DNA of 64,000 nucleotides from Aquipuribacter nitratireducens. Its GTDB lineage: Bacteria; Actinomycetota; Actinomycetes; Actinomycetales; JBBAYJ01. The stretch spans positions 62,001-126,000 of the forward strand of contig NZ_JBBEOG010000004.1 of assembly GCF_037860835.1 (NCBI RefSeq), written 5' to 3'. A model generated the notes under the pieces. It was not told the origin of the DNA, searched no databases, and saw only the letters and a program-made list of their open reading frames with translations. A program made the position numbers and the translations under genes. Of this stretch, positions 9,374 through 45,183 are shown piece by piece. Numbering within the stretch: the first letter of the stretch is position 1; every line of letters begins with the position of its first letter.

Positions 9374-9500
9374 GGCTCCGAGGGAGTCGTTTCTGTCGTG
9401 GGCGGGAGGTCTTTCGGGCCCTCAGGGCTCCGAGGGAGTCGTTACGGTCGTGCGTCGGGGCCGCTCAGGGCCGTCACGGCTCCGAGGGAGTCGTTGTGGT
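9374..9500 (+). repeat. Three direct copies of a 23-26 bp repeat upstream of an AbiEi-like gene
   Basis: Copies begin at 9374, 9426 and 9478, an exact 52-bp period. Each starts with the 18-bp core GGCTCCGAGGGAGTCGTT. Copies 1 and 2 continue with a variable base pair and end in GTCGT (9374-9399 and 9426-9451); copy 3 (9478-9500) diverges after the core. Two more copies lie downstream of the gene in reverse orientation (10493-10517 and 10545-10570, again 52 bp apart). The spacers between copies are unrelated. Nothing like this occurs at other genes in the window except the analogous, differently sequenced repeats at 44.1 and 45.1 kb. Confidence 0.85.
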
Positions 9501-9593
9501 GCCCCCTGGCGGCCGTCGTCCACAGGTCGCCGGCGTCATACACAGGGAAGCGGCCGTCTTCCGTCGGGAGGGCGCCGTGCCCACGGTCGAGGG

Positions 9594-10493
9594 ATGGCTC
9601 TCGAGGCTCTCGCTGCCGTCCAGGACGGCGTCGTCACCGGCCAGCAGCTCCACGATCACGGCGTCACGGTGTCGCGGCTCCGCACCCAGCTCCGCCTGGG
9701 CAGGTGGGTGCGCATCCGCCGGAACGCCTACCTGCTCGATCTCGTGAGGAACGTGCAGGACCCGTGGGTCCAGGCTCGAGCCGTCTCGCTCACGATGCCG
9801 GGCGTCGTCGTCTCGGGAGCGAGCGCGGCCCGCCTGTGGGGCATCGAAGGCGCGACGGCCGAGACCGTGGAGGTGACGGTGCCGCGACGACGAGCGCTCC
9901 GAGCGCGTCCGGACCTCGCCCCGCGACGACGTGAGATCGGTGACGGCGACGTCACGCTGCTCCGCGGCATCCCGGTGACCACGGCACTGCGCACCGTCCG
10001 CGACCTGGTCCTGGACGGCGACCGGCTCTCCGCGCTCGCCGTGTGCGACTCCGCGCTGCACAAGCGGCTGCTGCTGCCCGGCGACCTCCTGACGGCGCGG
10101 GCGCAGGCGGACGGGCTCCCGGGCAGTGCCGGTGTGGCGGACATCTGGGCCCTCGCGGACGGCAGGGCGGAGTCCGTCCTGGAGAGCCGCGTGCGTCTGA
10201 GGTGCATCGACGGTCTGGTGCCCCCTGACGACCTGCAGGTGGTCATCCGCGCCTCCGACGGGCGCTTCGTCGCGCGGGCGGACCTCGCGTGGTCGCGTCG
10301 CTCGCGTGGCAGGACCGGCCTCCTCGTCGTCGAGGCCGACGGGCGAGTGGTCCACGGCACCGTCGAGGCGGCGTACCACGACCGCTCGCGGCAGAACGAT
10401 GTGGTCGGCACGGGGCACGACATGCTGAGGGTGACGTGGCGGGACACGACGGACGCCCTCACGATCCCACGGGCGGTCCGCACCGTCCTGTGA
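9594..10493 (+). CDS. AbiEi-like / DUF559-type protein, cassette A
   Basis: 299 residues. The N terminus (about 1-60) is an AbiEi-antitoxin-like winged helix: VVTGQQLHDHGVTVSRLRTQ then GRWVRIRRNAYLL. A middle domain contains VVVSGASAARLWGI and TTALRTVRDLVLD. The C terminus (about 205-299) resembles a Vsr/DUF559 PDDEXK nuclease: a Glu in ESVLESRVRLR, an Asp in ARADLAWSR, then LLVVEADG, and a basic stretch AAYHDRSRQNDVV. Actinobacteria carry many such orphan genes with no AbiEii partner, as here. Function unproven. Start ATG chosen because conserved sequence begins there. The stop lies against the first downstream inverted repeat, so the gene is tightly bracketed by repeats. Confidence 0.75.
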   Translation: MALEALAAVQDGVVTGQQLHDHGVTVSRLRTQLRLGRWVRIRRNAYLLDLVRNVQDPWVQARAVSLTMPGVVVSGASAARLWGIEGATAETVEVTVPRRRALRARPDLAPRRREIGDGDVTLLRGIPVTTALRTVRDLVLDGDRLSALAVCDSALHKRLLLPGDLLTARAQADGLPGSAGVADIWALADGRAESVLESRVRLRCIDGLVPPDDLQVVIRASDGRFVARADLAWSRRSRGRTGLLVVEADGRVVHGTVEAAYHDRSRQNDVVGTGHDMLRVTWRDTTDALTIPRAVRTVL

Positions 10494-10570
10494 CGACAGG
10501 AACGACTCCCTCGGAGCGCTTGGTGCGCCCGATTCGCCCATTCGACGACAGAAACGACTCCCTCGGAGCC
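10493..10570 (-). repeat. Two inverted copies of the cassette A repeat
   Basis: Copies at 10493-10517 and 10545-10570 are the reverse complement of the upstream repeat, with the shared core AACGACTCCCTCGGAGC. The outermost copy (10545-10570) and the outermost upstream copy (9374-9399) are perfect 26-bp inverted repeats of each other. The inner copy abuts the stop codon of the AbiEi-like gene. Starts are 52 bp apart, the same period as upstream. Such hairpins could also act as transcription terminators, but the conserved period and the match on both sides of the gene are not explained by termination. Confidence 0.85.
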
Positions 10571-16619: not shown

Positions 16620-17846
16620 GTGGGCCTGAGCCAAGGGGCGTCGTTCCTCGTCGCGACGATCGCCCTCGGTGCCGTGTCGACCGCGTCCGTCGCCTCCGTC
16701 GCCGTCGTCGGCTGGAGCTCGTACAGTACGCCCGCCGTCGAGCGGCCGGTGGCCGCCGACACCGCCGCGGTCGTGCCCGCTGGCCCGGACTCGTCCCGGC
16801 AGGTCGGCGTGGTTCGGCAGCCGCCGTCCGTCACGGTCCCGTTCTCGCCCGAGCGCACCGCGGTGCTCATCGCGGTCGCCAACGAGGACCTGACCTTCGG
16901 CGAGGACGGCCGCATCATGGAGCCGAGCCTCACGGCGTCGCCCGAGCCGTCCGTCCTCGGCCCGTCCGAGCTCGTGCCCCCGTCCGTCGTCGAGGCGCCG
17001 GTGCCGACCGCCCCGTCGTCGCGGCCGCCCACCATCGTCGAGGTCGTCGTCGGCGTCGTGCCGGACCTCGTCGAGGTCGTCGAGACCCCCACCGAGGGCC
17101 CGACCCCGACCGGTACGCCGACGGCGGCGCCCACGGACGGGTCGACGGCCACCCCCACGGACACTCCGACGTCGGCACCGACTGACACCCCGACCGACGC
17201 TCCGACGATCAGCCCGACGGACACCCCCACCACGCCCCCGACCGACGAGCCGTCGGGCACCCCGACCTCCACCCCGACTCCCGAGCCGTCCCCCTCGCCG
17301 TCGGGTGGGCCGCGAGACCCCGGTGGCCGTCCGTCCGACGAGCCGCGCCCCTCGCCGACGGCTCCGGGCCGTCCGGACGAGCCGTCGCCGCCGACCGACC
17401 GGCCGTCCGCCTCACCGGAGGCTCCCGGCCGCGACGACGTCGAGGCCGCGGAGAAGGCCGCGCAGAAGGCCGCGCAGAAGGCCGCCGAGAAGGCGGCCAA
17501 GGAGAAGGCGGCTGCGGAGAAGGCGGCTGCGGAGAAGGCCGCGAAGGACAAGGCCGCTGCCGAGAAGGCCGCTGCCGAGAAGGCGGCGAAGGACAAGGCC
17601 GCGAAGGACAAGGCGGCTGCGGAGAAGGCCGCGGTGGAGAAGGCGGCCAAGGAGAAGGCGGCCAAGGAGAAGGCCGCGAAGGAGAAGGCGGCCAAGGAGA
17701 AGGCCGCGAAGGAGAAGGCGGCCAAGGAGAAGGCCGCCAAGGAGAAGGCCGCCGCCGAGGAGCGAGGCCGCTCGTCCACCGCTCCCGGCCAGGCGGGCAC
17801 CCAGGGCTCGGCGTCCAACGGCAAGGGCTCGCCCGGCCAGTCCTGA
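16620..17846 (+). CDS. Secreted low-complexity protein with Pro/Thr linker and Lys/Ala/Glu repeats
   Basis: 408 residues, no recognised enzyme domain. A signal-like hydrophobic segment lies at residues 7-32. A short region to about residue 155 has no obvious family. A Thr/Pro/Ser-rich stalk (about 156-275, many TPT/PTD units) follows, then a highly repetitive Lys/Ala/Glu helix (about 277-380) built from KEKAA-type pentads, and a Gly/Ser-rich tail. The layout resembles a cell-wall-spanning stalk plus a charged helical rod; the Lys/Ala part also resembles histone H1-like or TolA-like sequence. GTG start with GGAGACGGAGG upstream. The probable sigma28 promoter suggests co-expression with motility or developmental genes. 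Function unknown. Confidence 0.7.
17449..17760 (+). repeat. In-gene 15-bp tandem repeat array coding Lys/Ala/Glu pentads
   Basis: Roughly twenty imperfect 15-bp units of the type GCGGCCAAGGAGAAG and its synonymous variants (GCCGCG, GCGGCT) run without interruption inside the secreted protein gene. The pentad encoded is mostly AAKEK, with AAAEK and AAKDK variants. Units near 17641-17760 are almost identical, which suggests recent expansion by slippage; length variation between strains is expected. Confidence 0.8.
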
Positions 17847-31845: not shown

Positions 31846-31920
31846 GTCGTCGATCATGACCGTGGTCGCCTGGGCCGGGCGTGCTGCGCGACGCGGGTCG
31901 TCGATCATGACCGTTGTCGC
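31846..31920 (+). repeat. Pair of 24-bp direct repeats without a gene between
   Basis: Copies at 31846-31869 and 31897-31920 share GTCGTCGATCATGACCGT then differ by one base before GTCGC; the period is 51 bp. The 27-bp spacer is unrelated. They occupy most of the gap between the oxidoreductase and DUF805 genes. Size, spacing and position are close to the 52-bp-period repeats at 9374-9500, yet the sequence is different. Two converging genes end here, so a terminator role was considered, but neither copy forms a strong hairpin with the other. Confidence 0.8.
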
Positions 31921-41894: not shown

Positions 41895-41945
41895 CCGGGC
41901 CTCCTCGCTCGGAACCTGGCGCCGGTCGGGCGGACCGGCTAGGTT

Positions 41946-41971
41946 TTGAGCGCTCAACTTTGAGCGCTCAA
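41946..41971. promoter_or_regulatory. Two tandem LacI operators
   Basis: TTGAGCGCTCAA occurs twice, at 41946-41957 and 41960-41971, each a perfect 12-bp palindrome with the central CG that LacI-family hinge helices intercalate. Centres are 14 bp apart, so dimers would bind with a rotated register of about 1.3 turns. They lie between the divergent regulator and debranching genes, covering both promoters. Confidence 0.85.
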
Positions 41972-44098: not shown

Positions 44099-44108
44099 GC
44101 CAACGGCT

Positions 44109-44183
44109 CGCCACGACGACATCACAGACCCCCTCTGCGCGCCGTGACGCGCGCTGTGGAGGCTTCGCGATGTCGTCGTGGCG
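44109..44183 (+). repeat. Inverted-repeat pair upstream of AbiEi-like gene, cassette B
   Basis: CGCCACGACGACATC at 44109-44123 and its perfect complement GATGTCGTCGTGGCG at 44169-44183 face each other across 45 bp, just after the debranching gene. The right-hand copy belongs to a 25-bp block, TTCGCGATGTCGTCGTGGCG plus CCGCC (44164-44188), that recurs downstream with two changes. Confidence 0.85.
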
Positions 44184-44241
44184 CCGCCGTCCCTGTGGAT
44201 GACGGCCGCGAGGAGCAACCCGGGCCGGGCACAGTCGGCGG

Positions 44242-45153
44242 GTGCCCCTCCCGCCGCACCACGTCGTCGCCGCCCTCGGCGGTGTCGCCTCGTACCGGCG
44301 CGTCGTCGCCGTCTGCGGCCGGCACGCGCTGCGACGCGCCGTCGCGGGCGGCCAGATCCTGCGCCTCGGCCGCAACCGCTACGGCCTGCCCGGGCTCGAC
44401 GCCCAGCTCGCCGCCGCGCACGGTCACCGGGCGTGCCTCAGCCACCTCAGCGCCGCCGTGCACCACGGCTGGGGCGTCCTCGACCCGCCGCGCGACCTGT
44501 GGTTGACCCTGCCCCGCGGCCACAAGCACGCCCCCCGCGCCGGCACCGTGTGGTCGGCGGCCACGCTGAGCGACGCCGAGGTCGCCGCGGGGGTGACGTC
44601 ACCGGCCCGGACGGTCCTCGACTGCGCCCGGTCCCTGCCCTTCGCCGCCGCGCTCGCGGTGGCCGACTCCGCGCTTCGCTCGGGGGCGGTCACGCCCGAG
44701 GAGCTGGTGGAGCTCGCCCAGGCCACCCGCGCGCCCGGAGTCGTCGCGGCCCGGTCCGTCGTCGCCCACGCCGACGGACGGGCGGCCAACCCCTTCGAGT
44801 CCGGGCTCCGCGCCATCGTCCTCGAGGTCGGGCTGCGAGGCTTCGTGCCCCAGCTCGTCGTGACGGGTCCGGGCCTGTTCGCGTGCGTCGACCTCGGCGA
44901 CCCGGAGCGTAAGGTCGCCTTCGAGGCGGACGGCTACGGGGTGCACGGCACACGCCGGGCGTTCGCGCACGACCTCGCCAGACACGACGACCTGCAGTCC
45001 GACGGGTGGGTGACCCGTCGCTTCGCCTTCGAGCACGTCTTCCGCCGGCGGGGGTGGGTGGCGCGGCAGGTGCTCACGGCCGCCGCGCAGCGCGTGGTGC
45101 CCGCGCCACGACGACATCGCACACGCGTGAACGGTGCCCGAAAGGCCTCCTGA
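44242..45153 (+). CDS. AbiEi-like / DUF559-type protein, cassette B
   Basis: 303 residues. The N-terminal winged helix (SYRRVVAVCGRHALRRAVAG, ILRLGRNRYGLPGL) is AbiEi-like. The middle contains CLSHLSAAVHHGWGV and SPARTVLDCARSLPF. The C-terminal 120 residues follow the Vsr/DUF559 nuclease pattern: Glu in NPFESGLRAIVLEVG, Asp in CVDLGDPERKVAFEADGYG and the basic segment RRAFAHDLARHDDLQSDGW. It shares this architecture with the gene at 9594, but the two are clearly diverged. CACAGT ends 6 nt before the GTG. The last 17 codons run into the downstream repeat pair. No toxin partner gene is adjacent. Confidence 0.78.
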   Translation: MPLPPHHVVAALGGVASYRRVVAVCGRHALRRAVAGGQILRLGRNRYGLPGLDAQLAAAHGHRACLSHLSAAVHHGWGVLDPPRDLWLTLPRGHKHAPRAGTVWSAATLSDAEVAAGVTSPARTVLDCARSLPFAAALAVADSALRSGAVTPEELVELAQATRAPGVVAARSVVAHADGRAANPFESGLRAIVLEVGLRGFVPQLVVTGPGLFACVDLGDPERKVAFEADGYGVHGTRRAFAHDLARHDDLQSDGWVTRRFAFEHVFRRRGWVARQVLTAAAQRVVPAPRRHRTRVNGARKAS

Positions 45154-45183
45154 CCCGGTTCGCGATGTCGCTGTGGCGCCGCC
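45103..45183 (+). repeat. Inverted-repeat pair downstream of cassette B
   Basis: GCGCCACGACGACATCGC (45103-45120) overlaps the coding end of the AbiEi-like gene. Its inverted partner GCGATGTCGCTGTGGCGC (45162-45179) has two mismatches and lies 41 bp further on. The block 45159-45183 matches 44164-44188 in 23 of 25 bp, as a direct repeat enclosing the gene with a 995-bp period. Confidence 0.85.

Follow-up and report, generated by a model that had tools for sequence, protein, structure and literature searches.

The locus and its repeats

The window, that is, the whole 64,000-nucleotide stretch of the Aquipuribacter nitratireducens genome that was analysed, carries a single gene bracketed by copies of one short repeat. 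The features of this locus are as follows.

9374..9399, + strand: upstream repeat copy 1, 26 bp, perfect inverted partner of 10545-10570
9426..9451, + strand: upstream repeat copy 2, 52 bp after copy 1
9478..9495, + strand: upstream repeat copy 3, 18-bp core, 52 bp after copy 2
9594..10493, + strand: gene for a 299-aa protein (ATG at 9594, stop at 10493), with an AbiEi fold in residues 1-189 and an EDxHD/Vsr-like nuclease fold in residues 194-299
10493..10518, - strand: downstream repeat copy 1, reverse orientation
10545..10570, - strand: downstream repeat copy 2, reverse orientation, 52 bp on

The sequence GGCTCCGAGGGAGTCGTT is matched perfectly at 9374, 9426 and 9478 on the forward strand and at 10553 on the reverse strand, and with one mismatch at 10501 on the reverse strand. 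Shuffles of the window gave a mean of 0.23 matches at up to three mismatches and never reached six, so a chance origin of the repeats was rejected. The match positions and the shuffles confirm the arrangement described in the earlier note, three forward and two reverse copies around one gene. The period of exactly 52 bp on either side of the gene and the perfect 26-bp inverted pairing of the outermost copies (9374-9399 with 10545-10570) were confirmed as well. A search of Rfam for a known RNA element in the repeat gave no match. From reading of the open reading frames, the gene is flanked by convergent genes, one phospholipase-D-like and the other adenylosuccinate-lyase-like.

The encoded protein

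The fusion of an AbiEi-like part to a nuclease, suggested earlier from the letters, was borne out; the Pfam evidence is weak and the structural evidence clear. Pfam returned AbiEi_4 (E 6e-5) and REase_MTES_1575 (E 1e-3), both under the curated cut-offs, while the PADLOC model AbiEi matched with E 3e-23. The predicted structure (pLDDT 95.9) resembles the AbiEi antitoxin 6y8q in residues 1-189 (Z 12.3, 181 residues) and the catalytic domain of I-Bth0305I, 3r3p, in residues 194-299 (Z 11.0, 91 residues, rmsd 2.7); the next-best match for the nuclease fold was TnsA with Z 7. Residues 53-189 also resemble nucleotidyltransferases (MenT1 and ANT(2'')) with Z 8-9, a likeness that may be a property of the AbiEi C-terminal domain.

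No variation was seen among 68 homologues at E197, D230, E247 and G250, and very little at E193 and D249; as judged from the sequence, the catalytic residues of the predicted nuclease are intact. A candidate recognition helix, residues 26-35, varies more than the nuclease (entropy 2.7 versus 2.0), as expected of a putative recognition helix if targets diverge. Pfam assigned AbiEi_4, MTES_1575, DUF559, AbiEi_1 and one stray CMD to the 68 members, and found no transposase of the HUH Y1 type (Transposase_17, IS200-IS605 fold) in them. Inspection of the neighbouring open reading frames by eye revealed no adjoining AbiEii (DUF1814) toxin gene. With the phospholipase-D-like and adenylosuccinate-lyase-like genes as neighbours, the absence of a toxin partner reported earlier stands, and a toxin-antitoxin pair was rejected for want of a partner gene. 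Since neither the phage nor the plasmid collection gave a match to the protein, a phage or plasmid gene was likewise rejected.

Paralogues and gene-less arrays in the source genome

The 16-mer core of the window repeat also occurs in two gene-less arrays of the same genome, each between convergent genes by reading of the open reading frames. Other members of the family, treated below, lie within the window itself.

C1:554447-554565: gene-less array of the window repeat family, 3 copies
C11:89084-89151: gene-less array of the window repeat family, 2 copies
31849..31919, - strand: gene-less two-unit array with a 51-bp period, of the family flanking paralogue C8:13073
44108..44184, no strand assigned: upstream palindromic pair of a second cassette, GCGATGTCGTCGTGGCGC at 44108 (-) and 44167 (+)
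44242..45153, + strand: gene of the second cassette, 303 aa, 33% identity over residues 82-275 of the window protein
45103..45179, no strand assigned: downstream palindromic pair of the second cassette (45103 -, 45162 +), overlapping the 3' end of its gene

The repeat is therefore not private to the window gene, as had been supposed, its core being dispersed in two further arrays. Rather than sitting at many unrelated genes, the extra sites are gene-less and mostly intergenic. The proposed search of the genome and its relatives with the repeat core was productive in the source genome only, as the exact 16-mer was absent from the genomes of 98 relatives, which is explained by the repeats being private.

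Three close paralogues with 46-49% identity to the window protein are present in the genome, and each has its own distinct array on both sides (6+5, 5+4 and 2+2 copies). The period of these arrays is 52 bp, with 51 bp in one family, and all four repeat families of the genome also occur as gene-less arrays elsewhere. By crude gene calls, nine of the gene-less arrays lie between convergent genes, eight between tandem and one between divergent genes; two lie in an open reading frame and two are ambiguous. In the fetched loci 90 units were located, with a spacing of 52 bp in 54 of 60 cases and of 51 bp in the other six. The core of ~24 bp is conserved while the sequence of the ~28-bp spacer is not, which means that the length of the spacer is constrained; together with the core it amounts to about five turns of B-DNA. 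Such a fixed spacing would suit proteins bound side by side on the same face of the helix. The 303-aa protein of the second cassette is a distant homologue in which E193 is apparently replaced.

Flanking repeats at homologous loci

With a profile built from eight homologues, 104 of 149 genomes from the order were found to contain relatives, and with a broader profile 88 of 214 good-quality genomes from across the phylum contained homologues. Eighty homologous loci were fetched and, together with four from the source genome, make a set of 84. The threshold for a repeat match was set at the 99th percentile of mismatched flanks, and blocks 1 kb further out served as controls. A matching repeat on both flanks was found at 48 of 60 loci of close homologues and at 20 of 24 of distant ones, in all 68 of 84, compared with one of 87 control pairs; the remaining 16 loci had no matching flanking repeat at this threshold. 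Outside the order, after removal of four loci whose flanks overlapped at contig ends, 13 of 21 intact loci had the repeat on both flanks and none of 29 controls did. Homologues are thus regularly flanked, and neither of the two conditions under which the earlier note would have given up the cassette idea applies.

The flanking repeats are palindromic in 45 of 67 loci against two of 168 control regions. At many homologous loci they are inverted or palindromic and at some direct; at the window locus they are inverted. The upstream repeat ends at a median of 130 bp before the start codon and the downstream repeat begins at a median of 21 bp after the stop codon. In most genera the repeat is a palindrome of ~60 bp, often dispersed. 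The suggestion that array, gene and spacing belong to one unit gains strong support from homologues that repeat the architecture with private repeats of their own, and the reading of the protein as an enzyme with its own array of predicted sites gains the same from the private matching of their flanks. Two loci outside the order (L323 and L324) each lie beside an apparent rpoC 3' end, with palindromes of the form GAGCAGACGCAAAAGCCCCC on both sides of the homologue; these palindromes are terminator-like and apparently related to each other.

Dispersal and structure of the palindromes

In three congeneric genomes (G010, G044 and G028) ten palindromes were followed by BLAST. Seven had 5-10 sites away from the gene; an eighth had a handful, most of them in a sister genome, and the other two had no further site; every palindrome match listed had E < 6e-4. 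The copies in each genome mostly match the version of that genome's own gene best. Two further repeat families with many dispersed copies were found in G104 and G118, and the copy number of the dispersed repeats ranges from 2 to about 20 sites. At two other loci (L081 and L096) palindromes flank the gene and no dispersed copies were found.

Thirty copies of one repeat family, family A, align without gaps as 27+8+27 bp with a variable centre. When the columns were shuffled, the number of paired-change cells exceeded that in all 500 shuffles while the number of changed pair positions did not, so that paired change in the arms is suggestive only. In the alignment of this family (A3) a stem mismatch at columns 24/39 is kept in 25 of the 30 copies, mostly as A opposite C, which on the other strand is G opposite T. 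Vsr enzymes nick at T:G mismatches. Speculatively, the kept mismatch may mark a strand or a cut site.

Covariation of repeat and gene

Positional orthologues in three species (L082, L085 and L084) have repeats that agree better between the left and right side of one locus (scores 45-48) than between species (scores 11-32), so that the two sides drift together. Protein pairs at least 60% identical have a recognisable repeat in common in 79% of cases, those of 50-60% identity in 3%, and those below almost never. The rank correlation between repeat and protein similarity over all pairs was 0.106, within the range of 500 permutations with a maximum of 0.14. It is weak because repeat similarity vanishes below 60% identity, and the binned comparison is the informative one. 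Where cassettes occupy the same position, their proteins are 45% (L069/L088) and 56% (L070/L066) identical with neighbours at 81-93% and 84-97%, respectively, which indicates that cassette genes evolve faster than their neighbours.

Presence and absence of whole cassettes

The window cassette is absent at the same site from both congeners compared: G001 has an empty gap of 44 bp and G002 an unrelated gene. The flanks of the congeners are 70-87% identical, too diverged for exact junctions or a target duplication to be defined. A clean empty site was obtained in another genus (g24), where the L070 cassette of G104 (1,210 bp, comprising the gene and both palindromes) is absent from G118. The 2-kb flanks are 97.3% and 95.4% identical, 3 bp are kept at the empty site, and no target duplication was found there. 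Loss in G118 is more probable than gain in G104, as relatives are found next to this flank in G149 and G032. The comparison of strains with and without the cassette, as the earlier note had advised, therefore delivered a clean empty site for L070 and fell short at the window locus itself. The idea of a cassette is upheld by the presence and absence of whole units in both comparisons. The repeat is absent from the empty sites.

A close cognate of L069 is found only in G118 and G104, and G047 and G152, where it has no close relative, show one repeat site at most. In G149 and G032 family-A palindromes are kept at 93-96% identity while the most similar cassette proteins reach no more than 43-47% identity with the family-A enzyme; these copies are possibly relics. 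The element sites examined in genus g24 are common to G118 and G104, while the more distant G032 is without one and has a half-element at another. Across the g24 genomes no case of precise insertion of an element was demonstrated, and no direct case of a new insertion was found among the genomes compared.

Relation to known systems

The closest parallel is with the RAYT genes, which are flanked by their own repeats, the REPs being dispersed extragenic doublets of which tandem arrays occur (PMC2817692, PMC3116915). RAYTs and REPs co-evolve, with the gene at one site and faster than its neighbours, and palindromicity is kept (PMC2817692, PMC3116915). The present cassettes likewise have a single-copy chromosomal gene between its own repeats, dispersed extragenic repeats as doublets, tandem arrays and kept palindromicity, and gene and repeats co-evolving at a fixed site with the gene faster than its neighbours. 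They differ in that the enzyme is an AbiEi and EDxHD/Vsr-like nuclease protein where RAYT is an HUH/Y1 tyrosine transposase, that the basic motif is 18-27 bp, that the source genome has direct arrays phased at 52 bp where REPs are inverted doublets, that copy numbers are lower than those of typical REPs, and that no transposition intermediate is known for them. The family works like REP/RAYT without being a member of it, because the enzyme is unrelated.

The targets bound by AbiEi-type proteins consist of two 23-bp inverted repeats separated by 3 bp, or of pairs separated by 13 bp, and AbiEi and Rv2827c autorepress via inverted repeats in their own promoters (PMC7319586). The window protein shares with these proteins of the type IV toxin-antitoxin system AbiE the fold of residues 1-189, and the bound pairs of ~23 bp match the palindromes described here in size and spacing. 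The cassettes are not an AbiE system because the AbiEii toxin gene is missing; in addition a nuclease is fused, and the repeats also lie downstream and dispersed. I-Bth0305I, which according to a review forms a dimer on a target of almost 60 bp (PMC3943268), is alike in the fold of the nuclease domain (Z 11.0), and its ~60-bp target has the size of the palindromic unit. The cassettes have a free-standing gene, no intron and another DNA-binding module, and they are not classical homing genes because the empty sites are without the repeat. The C-terminal domain matches MTES_1575 (PF18741)/DUF559 in sequence; the MTES_1575-type Vsr-REase domain was described in a large HEPN/helicase conflict protein (PMC3710099), a context without private repeats. 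Among open-licence papers none was found that links these proteins to repeats.

Proposed mechanism and alternatives

Taken together, the results make it rather probable that these loci are a large family of single-gene cassettes in Actinomycetota with a lifestyle like that of REP/RAYT and an unrelated enzyme, including the predicted binding, cutting and repair-driven copying of the repeats. The N-terminal part would recognise a private motif of ~18-27 bp that occurs in two or more copies: in most genera an inverted pair forms a palindrome of ~60 bp, and in the source genome the copies are direct repeats at five DNA turns (52 bp). By analogy with the AbiEi pairs and the I-Bth0305I dimer target, the geometry of the palindromes (~60 bp with arms of about 23-27 bp) suggests binding by two molecules. 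The bound copies would dimerise or align on one face of the helix, which would bring two nuclease domains into contact for nicking or cutting of the repeat. With another copy as template, repair could then homogenise the repeats and expand the tandem arrays, and occasionally seed or remove copies or the whole cassette. These steps are inferred, and so is a selfish or domesticated role of the cassettes. Several observations count against this explanation: no new insertion was seen directly, 16 of the 84 loci had no matching flanking repeat, the flanking palindromes of L081 and L096 have no dispersed copies, and family-A palindromes persist in G149 and G032 in the absence of a close cognate gene. 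Self-cutting of the chromosome at many sites would also harm the host unless rare or regulated. It is possible, though we propose it tentatively, that the cassettes constitute a new class of mobile or intragenomic-selfish DNA, in which EDxHD/Vsr-like nucleases carrying AbiEi DNA-binding domains copy their paired repeats and cassette by break repair, an independent invention resembling REPIN/RAYT with many private families per genome across Actinomycetota.

The repeats might instead be operators of an orphan AbiEi-like autorepressor with the nuclease perhaps acting elsewhere, the dispersed arrays being a regulon, titration sites, insulators or terminators. Autorepression of AbiEi and Rv2827c from promoter inverted repeats (PMC7319586), the repeats 5' of the gene, the many dispersed sites in convergent or tandem intergenic space and the capacity of palindromes to act as transcription terminators speak for operators. 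We nevertheless consider this unlikely, as the copies on the two sides of the gene match and change together, the upstream repeats end well before the start codon (the median of 130 bp given above), many dispersed sites lie between convergent genes, an odd place for operators, several independent families occur per genome, and the nuclease residues are near-invariant in 68 proteins.

A classical homing-endonuclease gene would cut an uninterrupted site and have the cassette copied in, leaving the repeats as remnants of the target. We regard it as improbable in spite of the shared fold with a homing enzyme, I-Bth0305I, and the presence and absence of whole cassettes, since an uninterrupted target is expected at the empty sites and the repeat is missing there; moreover, the repeats flank the cassette and are not split by it, the genes keep one site across species, and phage and plasmid matches are lacking.

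That the nuclease is an anti-phage effector, kept inactive by chromosomal repeats acting as decoys or sinks in self/non-self discrimination or defence, is very improbable. Domains of the AbiEi family and of the Vsr-like type often occur in conflict systems (PMC3710099 for the second type), and PADLOC models recognise the AbiEi part; there is, however, no toxin or partner gene, and defence alone leaves the private co-drifting flank repeats and the tandem 52-bp expansion unexplained. Dispersed short palindromes are elsewhere often non-autonomous elements, yet the reading of the repeats as miniature elements of another transposase that flank the gene by coincidence has next to no probability and is refuted as a general explanation, because the repeat matches the protein gene by gene, being private to each and common only to proteins at least 60% identical, and flanks 68 of 84 loci against 1 of 87 controls.

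Significance and other features of the window

Many proteins of Actinomycetota bear the label AbiEi antitoxin, DUF559 or REase_MTES_1575, and they are catalogued as orphan antitoxins or as unknowns. The private, often dispersed and co-drifting repeats that accompany most members give these proteins a testable function, and they account for one class of actinobacterial intergenic repeats. The preferred reading, cassettes with a REP/RAYT-like lifestyle, suggests that this lifestyle arose more than once, from different enzymes; should the repair-driven spread be true, the cassettes would merit a class of their own. The many natural pairs of protein and target also offer a means of learning how AbiEi-type domains read DNA.

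Two other repetitive features were observed in the window. A tandem array with 15/45-bp units at 17443-17753 reads as coding repeats rich in Lys, Ala and Glu. At 41945-41971, just upstream of a large open reading frame, a 14-bp palindromic unit, TTTGAGCGCTCAAC, forms a perfect tandem that resembles the operator of a regulator.
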